A stretch of 64,000 nt of DNA from Thermodesulfobacteriota bacterium (lineage in GTDB: Bacteria > Desulfobacterota_D > UBA1144 > Nemesobacterales > UBA2774): the NCBI GenBank assembly GCA_040754335.1, contig JBFMCV010000005.1:1-64000 (forward strand), written 5' to 3'. Under the pieces are notes generated by a model that was given only the letters and a program-made list of their open reading frames with translations, was not told where the DNA came from and ran no database searches. Below, one piece after another: positions 56,154 to 59,320 of this stretch. How positions within the stretch are numbered: the first letter of the stretch is position 1; each line of letters begins with the position of its first letter. The position numbers were made by a program, and so were the translations under genes.

Positions 56154-56957
56154 ATGAGCCGCGAATCGGAGCTTAAAGGCATTATCGAGGACTTAAAGAA
56201 CTACCTGGAATTCGAGAAATCGATGGGGGTCGGGAGGGTGTCCGTAATAAAAGAGGCGAAAGAAGAGCCGCCCCCGAAACCGCAAGATAGAGAGCCCGCG
56301 AGAGCACAGATGAAAGCGCCTGTAAAAACCGAAAAGAAGGAAGACGTCATCAAGGTAGAGCAGCAGATCGGCATATTCGACGCATCGGCCAAGAGAATGA
56401 CGCTCGAGGAGATAAGGGCCGAGATAGGAGACTGCACGAGGTGCAAGCTCTCTGAAGGAAGGACGAATATCGTGTTCGGGGAAGGGAACCCGAAGGCGAG
56501 GCTCGTGTTCGTGGGCGAAGGGCCCGGGAGGGATGAGGACTTGCAGGGACGGCCGTTCGTGGGGAGAGCCGGGCAGTTACTCAACAAGATCATAGAGGCG
56601 ATGGGGTTAAAGAGGGAGGACGTATACATTTGCAACGTGGTGAAGTGCCGCCCGCCCGACAACAGGACGCCCGAGCCCGACGAGATGGCGACCTGCGAGC
56701 AGTTCCTCTTCAAGCAGATTCGGTCGATAGAGCCCCAGGTTATAGTGTGCCTCGGGAGCACGGCCGCCCAGTCGGTGCTTAAATCGAAACTCAGCCTCGG
56801 GAGCCTCCGCGGGAAGTTCCATCAGTACGGAAGGGCGAAACTTATGGTAACTTATCATCCGGCTGCCCTTCTCAGGAACCCGAATTTCAAGAAGCCCCTC
56901 TGGGAAGACATGCAGGTAGTAATGAAGGAATTGGGAATCTCAAGACCGGGCGATTAG
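56154..56957 (+). CDS. udg: Type 4 uracil-DNA glycosylase
   Basis: Removes uracil from DNA; a family 4 (UDGa) enzyme with a [4Fe-4S] cluster. With the start at ATG 56154 the product is 267 residues: a flexible N-terminal tail rich in Lys/Glu/Pro (to about residue 80), then the core with CTRCKLSEGRTNIVFGEGNP (first cluster Cys pair), FVGEGPGRDEDLQGRPFVGRAGQLL (uracil pocket), CNVVKCRPPDNRTPEPDE (second Cys), VCLGSTAAQ and the VTYHPAALLR catalytic loop. The upstream in-frame extension to 56013 lacks coding character. Its last 10 nt lie inside tRNA-Arg, so the stop codon TAG is formed from tRNA D-arm bases. Confidence 0.93.
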   Translation: MSRESELKGIIEDLKNYLEFEKSMGVGRVSVIKEAKEEPPPKPQDREPARAQMKAPVKTEKKEDVIKVEQQIGIFDASAKRMTLEEIRAEIGDCTRCKLSEGRTNIVFGEGNPKARLVFVGEGPGRDEDLQGRPFVGRAGQLLNKIIEAMGLKREDVYICNVVKCRPPDNRTPEPDEMATCEQFLFKQIRSIEPQVIVCLGSTAAQSVLKSKLSLGSLRGKFHQYGRAKLMVTYHPAALLRNPNFKKPLWEDMQVVMKELGISRPGD

Positions 56958-57023
56958 CTCAGTGGATAGAGCGCAGGCCTCCGAAGCCTGAGGCCGGGGG
57001 TTCGAGTCCCCCATCGCCCGCCA
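56948..57023 (+). tRNA. tRNA-Arg(CCG), CCA encoded
   Basis: A clear cloverleaf: acceptor GGGCGAT pairs with ATCGCCC, the D arm starts GCTC AGTGGAT AGAGC, the anticodon stem CAGGC/GCCTG encloses loop CTCCGAA with anticodon CCG (reads CGG), and the T arm GGGGG-TTCGAGT-CCCCC is followed by ATCGCCC, G and CCA (57021-57023). It overlaps the end of the uracil-DNA glycosylase gene by 10 nt (56948-56957). Its 3' 47 bases are repeated exactly at 57876-57922. Confidence 0.95.
56977..57023 (+). repeat. Direct repeat copy 1 (attL-like), inside tRNA-Arg 3' part
   Basis: 47 bp from the anticodon-stem to CCA of tRNA-Arg, identical to 57876-57922. As the copy inside the functional tRNA, it is the attL-like end of cassette 1. 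Confidence 0.9.
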
Positions 57024-57383
57024 GGAAATAAACTATGAATAGTATGTAGATAGTGCGTAGTGTCCAAATTGGTGTCTACTCCTAAATTAATAGCTATCAG
57101 AATCGTTGCATTAACGCTTCTCTTTGCAACAGTTGGGAGCGGATTACCCGTGTTTTAAATTTCGCCGGTTTGCTGTATAACACTCTATATGGGATACTAT
57201 ACTGCATATTTACAGCCTAATTTGTAGTTATCCCGATTGTGCGAAGCACAGCGAAGAAGCGCCGGAATGATACGAATCTTGCCGTACACTTTGACGCGAA
57301 AATGTTTGTCGAGCCACTGCCCTTCGATTGCGAGCACATCGTTGACTCCGGTTTAGGGTGGCTCATTACGATGGAGAAGCGAC
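57024..57383. other. 360-nt non-coding left part of cassette 1
   Basis: No gene seen. It has a lower-GC stretch next to the tRNA and a small hairpin GTTGCA/TGCAAC near 57104-57131, then a GC-richer stretch before the VOC-family gene. It contains no integrase-like frame. Confidence 0.5.
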
Positions 57384-57869
57384 ATGATGAAGCAAGCAAA
57401 GAACACGATTTGCCTTTGGTACAATGGCGACGCCGAAGAGGCGGCGCGTTTTTACGCCGAGACCTTCCCCGATTCATCTGTTGGCGCGGTACTCCGCGCA
57501 CCGGGAGATTTTCCGTCGGGGGAGCAAGGGGACGTGTTGACGGTCGAGTTTACCGTTATGGGGATTCCTTGCCTCGGGCTCAATGGCGGACCCGCATTCA
57601 AGCACAACGAAGCGTTCTCATTTCAGGTCGCAACTGTTGACCAGGCCGAAACGGATCGTTACTGGAACGCGATAGTAGGCAACGGTGGCGAGGAGAGTGC
57701 GTGCGGCTGGTGCAAGGACAAATGGGGATTGTCCTGGCAGATCACGCCGATTGCTCTCATCAAAGCGATAACCGATCCCGATCGCGCTGCCGCCAAGCGC
57801 GCATTCGATGCGATGATGCAGATGAAAAAGATCGACATTGCTGCAATCGAGGCGGCGCGCCGCGGTTGA
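57384..57869 (+). CDS. VOC/PhnB-like glyoxalase-fold protein, foreign codon use
   Basis: A 161-residue member of the PhnB/3-demethylubiquinone methyltransferase-like VOC family: NTICLWYNGDAEEAARFYAETFPDSSVG, the DVLTVEFTVMGIPCLGLNGGP strand, and KDKWGLSWQITP, which ends each beta-alpha-beta-beta-beta unit. Function uncertain (metalloenzyme or ligand binding); the family includes antibiotic-resistance and unknown proteins. All seven arginines use CGT or CGC, while neighbouring genes mostly use AGG, evidence for transfer. The stop is 7 nt before the exact copy of the tRNA 3' end. Start ATG 57384 follows GGAGAAG. Confidence 0.87.
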   Translation: MMKQAKNTICLWYNGDAEEAARFYAETFPDSSVGAVLRAPGDFPSGEQGDVLTVEFTVMGIPCLGLNGGPAFKHNEAFSFQVATVDQAETDRYWNAIVGNGGEESACGWCKDKWGLSWQITPIALIKAITDPDRAAAKRAFDAMMQMKKIDIAAIEAARRG

Positions 57870-57875
57870 GGTTGC

Positions 57876-57922
57876 GCCTCCGAAGCCTGAGGCCGGGGGT
57901 TCGAGTCCCCCATCGCCCGCCA
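57876..57922 (+). repeat. Direct repeat copy 2 of tRNA-Arg 3' end (attR-like)
   Basis: A perfect 47-bp copy of tRNA-Arg positions from the anticodon stem to CCA, lying 7 nt after the VOC gene stop. It lacks the acceptor and D-arm 5' half, so it is not a gene. Distance from copy 1 to copy 2 is 899 bp. Confidence 0.95.
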
Positions 57923-58132
57923 CACATTCACTTTATGAATCGTTGAATCCTTCATATCCCTTCGGTTGATATTTATGACCGATGTACCCTATATTTTTCA
58001 TCTGATTTTCTATGAAGTTTTACGAAAGCCTGTCTAACCCGGAAACAGGGCAGGTATTTACACACTAGAACTGCTAAAATGGGAATGCGGATACGGAGAG
58101 AATGGTTTATACTTTATATGGGGGTGAGAAAA

Positions 58133-58291
58133 ATGGGTGCAAAAAAACCTTTTCTCACATACATGGGTAATAGAAAATGGAGAAAAGTCAGAAGTTCAAA
58201 AGCACCAGCGGGAAGAAATTACCTGAAATACGCCGGGCACAGGACATGGAAAAAAGTCAGCACTGACCACGCCCTTCATACCAAGCACTAA
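58133..58291 (+). CDS. Small basic protein, 52 aa, with repeated Y-(M/A)-G motif
   Basis: Unrecognised. I chose ATG 58133 because GGGGGTGAG lies 5 nt upstream; ATG 58079 in the same frame would add 18 residues. The sequence is Lys/Arg-rich and repetitive: TYMGNRKWRKV and KYAGHRTWKKV are clear repeats, and YMGVRKMGAKK in the extension is a third. The charge suggests nucleic-acid or membrane interaction. It ends 3 nt before a degenerate copy of the tRNA 3' end, mirroring the layout of the VOC gene, so it may be the cargo of a second cassette. Confidence 0.5.
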   Translation: MGAKKPFLTYMGNRKWRKVRSSKAPAGRNYLKYAGHRTWKKVSTDHALHTKH

Positions 58292-58293
58292 GC

Positions 58294-58315
58294 GTTCGAG
58301 CCCCCATGCACGCCA
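58294..58315 (+). repeat. Degenerate third copy of tRNA-Arg 3' end
   Basis: GTTCGAGCCCCCATGCACGC-CA aligns to the tRNA end GTTCGAGTCCCCCATCGCCC-GCCA with about 21 matches in 24 columns: T loop, 3' side of T stem, and CCA. It begins 3 nt after the stop of the 52-aa gene. No tRNA 5' part is present. Confidence 0.65.
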
Positions 58316-58415
58316 GCGTATTATTTAATATATTCAGTCAGTTAGGGCTTGAGTTCCCCCTTCATCACACACTATTCAATCCGAATCCCTAATTTGATAT
58401 TATTATTAGACGGCT

Positions 58416-58886
58416 ATGGGTAACAGGTTCGTGGTGCACGAGCATCATTCGTCGAGGCTGCATTTCGACTTCCGTCTGGAGATGGAAGGAGTGCTCCGCT
58501 CGTGGGCGGTGCCGAAAGGGCCGTCCATGATACCGGACGAAAGGAGGCTGGCTATCGAAGTGGAAGACCACCCGCTCGAATACATCGATTTCGAGGGCAT
58601 CATACCGAGAGGGATGTACGGCGCGGGGGCGGTCGTGATCTGGGACGAGGGGACGTACGAATTGATAACGGAAGAAAGAGACAAGATAGAGTTTATCCTT
58701 TACGGACAGAAGCTCCGCGGGAAATTCGATATGATTCGCTATAAAAGCAGGGGCGTTGAAAACCAGTGGCTGCTTATCAAGCAGAAGGACGAGTTTGCGG
58801 TCCGCCACTGGAAGCTCGAGACGTGCCTGACCAAATCTAAATTGTCCAAACTGGAGGAGCGTATCCCGCCCTGCGAGTTCCGTTAA
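58416..58886 (+). CDS. Stand-alone LigD 3'-phosphoesterase domain protein
   Basis: A 156-residue protein matching the N-terminal phosphoesterase (PE) domain of DNA ligase [73 protein letters not shown], and a C-terminal LLIKQKDEF. The PE domain trims 3'-phosphates and ribonucleotides at breaks in NHEJ-type repair. Ku, ligase and polymerase domains are not in this window, so it may act alone, as known for some archaeal and bacterial PE proteins. It is 101 nt after the tRNA-end repeat. Confidence 0.92.
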
Positions 58887-58894
58887 GCCGAGGC

Positions 58895-59320
58895 TCAGCT
58901 CTCGAGCGCCGCGTCGAGCGTGATCTCGGCGTTGAGCACGCGGGACACGGGGCAGCCCTTCTTCGCGTTATTCGCGGCCGTTTCGAACGCAGCCTTATCC
59001 GCACCCGGAACCTTCGCCTTGAGGTCCAGGTGAACGGCAGTGATCGTGAACCCCGCGTCCGTTTTTTCGAGAGAGACCGAGGCAGTGGTCCTTATTGTAT
59101 CCGCAGTCAGGCCGAGCTTCCCGAGCTCGGACGAGAGCGCCATAGAGAAGCAGCCCGCGTGGGCGGCCGCGATGAGCTCTTCGGGGTTAGTGCCCTTCCC
59201 GTCTTCGAACCGCGTCTTGAACGAATATTGCGTGTCCGAAAGCACGCCGCTATCGGTCGAAATAGCGCCTTTACCGCTTTTTAAATCCCCTTTCCACACA
59301 GCAGATGCATTACGTTTCAT
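58895..59320 (-). CDS. OsmC/Ohr-family peroxiredoxin
   Basis: A 141-residue OsmC-type thiol peroxidase. Peroxidatic Cys57 lies in [16 protein letters not shown] and resolving Cys123 in [11 protein letters not shown]. The N-terminal [18 protein letters not shown] and [13 protein letters not shown] motifs and the conserved TNPEEL are typical of OsmC rather than YhfA. It reduces organic hydroperoxides. Convergent with the LigD-PE gene (8 nt). Confidence 0.94.

Follow-up and report, generated by a model that had tools for sequence, protein, structure and literature searches.

A selected family of small basic proteins, plausibly nucleic-acid binding, with one member in a probable decayed tRNA-Arg island

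What does a strongly basic open frame of 70 codons (58079..58291, forward strand) encode, and how did it come to lie next to copies of a tRNA end? The frame lies in a 64,000-nucleotide stretch of a Thermodesulfobacteriota genome (the window; its genome is termed G000, and G001 and G003 are congeners). A preliminary description, made from the letters alone, placed a small basic protein of 52 to 70 residues in the frame. The frame is indeed open and highly basic; however, its start is most likely at 58133, so the product would be 52 aa long. Conservation across homologues starts at the ATG at 58133, which is codon 19 of the listed frame, and in 10 of the 11 relatives compared, the same frame runs into a stop codon at most 20 codons before the homologous start. 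TATACT, which resembles a promoter element, and a stretch rich in purines precede this start in the window and in five copies from other genera of the family; the same-genus G001 has no TATACT before the gene. Because the frame is closed upstream in nearly all of the relatives compared and the promoter-like block is conserved before 58133, the assignment of a 52-aa product is well supported, and the first 18 codons are most likely not coding. A promoter scan returned one consensus site (57966-57995), distinct from the conserved TATACT, and no more sites than shuffled sequences did. The features of the frame are as follows.

58079..58132, forward strand: upstream 18 codons of the listed frame, most likely promoter and ribosome-binding region, with the AGAATGGTTTATACTTTATA-like block found in the window and in five family copies
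58133..58291, forward strand: conserved basic protein of 52 aa with two predicted hairpin repeats; homologues in 12 other genomes align from 58133
58151..58192, forward strand: repeat 1, FLTYMGNRKWRKVR, from self-comparison; AlphaFold strands at residues 7-12 and 15-19
58220..58261, forward strand: repeat 2, YLKYAGHRTWKKVS, from self-comparison; AlphaFold strands at residues 30-35 and 38-42

The product, MGAKKPFLTYMGNRKWRKVRSSKAPAGRNYLKYAGHRTWKKVSTDHALHTKH, contains 14 Lys or Arg residues and a single Asp or Glu residue, resulting in a net charge of +13 and a pI of 11.2. A net charge of +13 to +17 and the absence of Cys were observed in all 12 family sequences. Gapless self-alignment of the two repeat copies gave a score of 44, which was reached by none of 5,000 shuffles. 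The repeat is better described by (F/Y)LxYxGxRxWxK than by the pattern proposed earlier. That pattern, Y-(M/A)-G-x-R-(K/T)-x-x-K-K in two or three copies, fits exactly at none of the three places when compared by eye; two copies are real, whereas the third (YMGVRKMG, codons 13 to 20 of the 70) spans the promoter and start region and is not conserved. Repeat 2 of the window copy departs from the consensus (HRT instead of NRK) and its C terminus is unlike that of the other copies; because of these deviations, the window copy could be drifting.

A profile search of 57 genomes of the window's phylum detected the gene in 13, with one copy each (E values down to 2.4e-27), and did not find it in the other 44, genomes of 97-98% completeness included. 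A search of 386 relatives, in which only part of the candidates was scored for some genomes (e.g., 17 of 31 in G000), returned the same 13 genomes and no others among the candidates scored. A separate contig scan recovered 8 of the 13 known copies and was thus not exhaustive. In a protein search, 20 of 100 relatives matched at an E value of at most 0.1; seven weak matches (G067, G094, G037, G091, G070, G092, and G007; E values of 0.005 to 0.1) were dropped as chance, since the phylum profile search gave nothing for G007 and G037 and since the search of 386 relatives, in which the other five may or may not have been included, matched no genome beyond the 13. Phages and plasmids yielded no match, and the sole match in three scans of viral contigs, a longer protein sharing only YLGNRRWKK, was judged to be due to chance. 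The preliminary description had held that a lack of homologues together with a frame disrupted in relatives would speak against the gene; instead, the frame is intact in 11 relatives and is truncated by a contig end in the twelfth. For 12 copies (the 13th, from G010, is cut by the contig end and was left out), pN was lower than pS in 65 of 66 pairs, with means of 0.20 and 0.52 over 38 aligned codons; the exception was the pair G013 and G015 (pS of 0.00, pN of 0.03). The dN/dS ratio of the window copy was 0.13 to 0.22 against the five copies from other genera and 0.20 against G001.

That the protein belongs to no recognised family held up: nothing exceeded a curated Pfam cutoff, and NCBIfam gave no match. 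The EcoO109I restriction endonuclease family (PF14511) was rejected as a chance match (E values of 0.008 to 0.01; 16.1 to 16.4 bits against a cutoff of 22.5), its likeness consisting solely of a weak local match of about 30 residues in one of 11 family members that scores below the curated cutoff. The best PHROGs match (E value of 0.0082) was to families of unknown function and was unconvincing, and the best match among PDB sequences was a nitrogenase (E value of 0.28). The titles found in literature searches named no such protein, and a term search of a paper on Dadabacteria (PMC8115339) matched only "phage," in its references. The gene represents a real, selected small protein family that is narrowly distributed in what was searched and unnamed in the libraries searched, and that is short enough to escape much annotation.

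AlphaFold modelled the window protein with four strands (residues 7-12, 15-19, 30-35, and 38-42; pLDDT of 70.8, pTM of 0.43) and the G015 protein with nearly the same four strands (pLDDT of 68.0, pTM of 0.41). In hairpin 1, L8, Y10, G12, R14, W16, and K18 had a mean entropy of 0.14 versus 0.86 for the intervening residues 7 to 17; in hairpin 2, the values were 0.15 for the alternating conserved positions and 1.20 for those between them. This residue-by-residue alternation, which is independent of the AlphaFold model, fits the pattern expected if one face of each hairpin were buried or functional. With moderate confidence, the protein can be described as two predicted beta-hairpins. Fold searches with the models, at a pLDDT of about 70, gave nothing significant (no Foldseek match at an E value of 0.001 or below), the VIA fold comparison gave only weak entries, mostly gelsolin-like (best Z score of 2.9), and chains of Hfq, Tudor, and PWWP proteins appeared in the fold search only at E values above 2. 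No significant match to nucleic-acid-binding proteins was obtained by sequence or by fold.

The surroundings of the gene differ widely. When frames of at least 90 aa within 7 kb were compared, adjacent genes were common only to G008, G013, and G015 (MutL) and to G026 and G034 (MreB); G022 and G028 have one gene in common, at a different distance and orientation. About 10 contexts were counted for the 13 genomes, several of them on short contigs. The upstream neighbours of G012 and G015 were discarded as shared synteny, being paralogous repeat proteins instead. The G001 copy lies within 1,409 bp where G003 has 53 bp and, in a more distant alignment, within 1,520 bp where G000 has 51 bp. This insert, about 1.4 kb long and lacking in both of these relatives, opens with 99 bp that nearly repeat (98%) the beginning of a gene located elsewhere on the contig. 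The window protein is identical at 32 to 33 of 38 positions to those of other genera of its family versus 22 of 38 for the same-genus G001, while the Usp protein neighbouring the G001 copy is 72% identical to that of G000 and 95 to 96% identical to that of G003. The gene changes its neighbourhood often, and the best reading is that it moves horizontally. Among 20 flanking proteins around ten other homologues scanned with Pfam, there were no integrases and one transposase, an IS110-type (PF01548) encoded about 0.8 kb from the G026 homologue (L053 25-759). No immunity, export, or bacteriocin family was found among these 20 neighbours apart from two general transporters, each beside a single copy.

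A 62-bp noncoding stretch of the window (57166-57227) has 47 of 62 nucleotides in gapless identity with L052 5075-5136, a score reached by none of 300 shuffles. It is thus common to the window's first tRNA segment and to the homologue-bearing insertion of G001; no third copy was present in the sequences searched. This stretch could mark a common mobile element.

The position of the window copy is best followed from the upstream tRNA gene.

56948..57023, forward strand: intact tRNA-Arg(CCG), the putative integration site
57058..57078, reverse strand: probable relic of a tyrosine integrase gene, namely of its 3' end (VDTNLDT), with 20 of 21 nucleotides identical to the end of the intact integrase gene of G013
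57384..57869, forward strand: gene for a protein like 3-demethylubiquinone-9 3-methyltransferase (PF06983; E value of 2.1e-49), cargo of the first segment
57876..57922, forward strand: exact copy of the tRNA-Arg(CCG) 3' end (47 of 47 nucleotides), left border of the gene's segment
58294..58315, forward strand: degenerate copy of the tRNA-Arg 3' end, 2 bases past the stop codon (score of 16)
58416..58886, forward strand: gene with a DNA ligase D 3'-phosphoesterase domain, likewise missing from the interval between tRNA-Arg and OsmC in G006

Two segments thus follow the tRNA gene, the first ending at the exact copy and the second holding the basic protein gene and ending at the weak copy. The preliminary description placed the gene right before a tRNA-end copy; such a copy does follow it but is degenerate, and the strong one lies on its left. 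In the right copy, 21 of 24 alignment columns are identical, with two gaps, and its score was reached by none of 1,000 shuffles but by 2 of 240 real slices, each 1 kb long, taken from both strands of the window. Within 56900-58900, the tRNA was the sole Rfam match. According to ARAGORN, tRNA-Arg(CCG) adjoins a uracil-DNA-glycosylase gene in 10 of 11 loci, the window included; the 11th, in G009, reaches the contig end. On the 3' side of the tRNA, the nine relatives read carry mostly different genes, among them an SDR gene (G003), a tyrosine integrase of 371 aa (G013), and a 97-aa gene common to G007 and G014. In G006, the OsmC gene follows about 100 bp after the tRNA, an order seen in 1 of the 9 relatives, the other 8 having other genes.

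None of the six PF00589 (integrase) matches in G000 falls within 57024-58890, where only the 21-nt match to an integrase end was found. This relic corresponds to the G013 integrase end at the same place, about 35 nt past the tRNA (E value of 5e-5), and G012 keeps 16 of 17 nucleotides. Taken together, the exact tRNA-end copy, the relic, and the weak right copy place the gene within the probable remains of an integrase-driven insertion. On the best reading, these are the remains of a tyrosine-recombinase island at tRNA-Arg(CCG), now decayed, which may have carried the gene in. The idea of a mobile unit is strengthened by the tRNA being followed by the next gene in one relative, by the exact left copy, by the likely integrase relic, and by the many contexts. 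None of the other homologues was observed to lie between tRNA-end copies: when their surroundings were scanned for perfect T-arms, an approach blind to degenerate ones, 2 of 11 loci had one T-arm within 6 kb. As no second case was seen, the link to an island may be specific to G000.

Inserts bounded by tRNA ends were also observed elsewhere in the lineage. In G000, 7 of the 45 tRNA genes are followed within 6 kb by a second version of their 3' end, identical at 21 or more of 25 nucleotides (L153, L149, L158, L164, L136, L154, and 56948-57922 of the window); the inserts measure 0.3 to 3.2 kb, and several hold one main frame. With swapped tRNA ends as a control, 5 of 1,980 pairs passed, all five at the same true copies. 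The case at tRNA-Leu(TAG) is a longer duplication, since the copied stretch continues into the DNA downstream. One SDR gene, together with its upstream DNA (845 of 959 nucleotides identical), follows different tRNA genes in L136 (G000, tRNA-Thr CGT) and in L088 (G003, tRNA-Arg CCG); of 16 family genomes, these two alone gave a match at an E value of at most 1e-60. The gene seems to relocate from one tRNA site to another, although no tRNA-end copy was found behind it in G003. At the tRNA-Arg site of G014 (L093 2041-2646), an insert of about 0.5 kb with one 97-aa gene ends in a tRNA-end copy (24 of 28 nucleotides). At tRNA-Ala(CGC) of G000 (L149 6257-7420), two tandem tRNA-end copies lie beside a broken integrase fragment, and a similar sequence, CAGGGGGTTGCG (one variant), occurs after the tRNA and after each copy. 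The location of the basic protein gene points to such short inserts, often integrase-less, as one way in which this lineage gains genes.

Based on its charge, its paired aromatic and basic predicted hairpins, and its lack of cysteines, it is plausible that the protein binds nucleic acid, and it is probably intracellular. In each hairpin, L-x-Y-x-G-x-R-x-W-x-K would line one face, the opposite face bearing residues that vary more and are often basic; the two similar hairpins may form one small sheet or barrel that holds RNA or DNA through its Tyr, Trp, Arg, and Lys side chains. The gene would travel between genomes and loci, mostly with the same short upstream block, and in G000 may have entered in, or been trapped by, the tyrosine-recombinase island, whose integrase would since have been lost. 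To this joint reading, of a 52-aa, two-hairpin, probably intracellular mobile protein from a family absent from the libraries that binds nucleic acid and lies in an integrase-less island, we assign a probability of roughly 0.5.

The nearest rivals to this reading, an accessory factor of mobile elements and a protein of the ribosome or nucleoid, both appear improbable. An accessory factor, for example a recombination directionality factor or the own protein of a minimal mobile unit, would explain the small size, the charge, and the movement; small basic proteins often travel with integrases, and the island, the many contexts, the G001 insertion, and the transposase gene near the G026 copy are in keeping with this role. 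However, the other homologues have that one transposase and no integrase among their scanned neighbours, selection was kept over 12 copies, Pfam showed no match to excisionase families, and the predicted structure is beta rather than a winged helix. A lineage-specific ribosome-associated or nucleoid protein with a housekeeping nucleic-acid-binding role would likewise agree with charge, size, and a single copy per genome, as is seen for small ribosomal and nucleoid proteins, but it is unlikely given that the gene was not found in most phylum genomes, nearly complete ones included, and that its genomic context is unstable. Still less probable is that, in G000, the gene is decaying as a passenger of a dead island, whatever its role elsewhere: the insert has no integrase, its right border is degenerate, and repeat 2 and the C terminus are altered, yet the frame is intact, the upstream block is kept, and dN/dS against the five family copies is low (see above). 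Least likely of all is an antimicrobial role, whether as a leaderless peptide that kills or is toxic or as the immunity protein against one; the antimicrobial-like product suggested in the preliminary description found no support. Length, charge, and Trp content do lie within the range covered by leaderless bacteriocins and the context is mobile, but no Pfam or NCBIfam family matched, the neighbours scanned include no bacteriocin, immunity, or dedicated export family, cysteines are absent, and the invariant residues lie on one face of each hairpin in a predicted beta structure.

Returning to the nucleic-acid-binding reading, Sso7d/Cren7, Hfq, and Tudor/PWWP proteins are nucleic-acid-binding beta proteins of small size and basic charge. 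The window protein is like them in size class, charge, and beta strands with aromatic residues but has no significant sequence or fold match to them, and to our knowledge tandem YxGxRxW hairpins are a feature of none of them. It is conceivable, though doubtful, that the family is a new minimal binder, built of two tandem 13-residue YxGxRxW hairpins within about 45 residues, whose promoter and frame spread as a compact unit through one candidate phylum, mobilised in trans by the recombinases of tRNA islands and of other elements. Present evidence does not make it a new kind of system, and the two-hairpin design should be simple to test as a minimal binder. With respect to the island, the site in the window differs from the tyrosine-recombinase tRNA islands mapped by Islander (PMC4383910), which are reported to require an encoded integrase: here none is left, the segments are very short (0.9 and 0.4 kb), and the second border is degenerate. 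It resembles those islands in the intact tRNA gene, the displaced copy of its 3' end, a relative with an empty site, and an integrase at the same tRNA in another relative.
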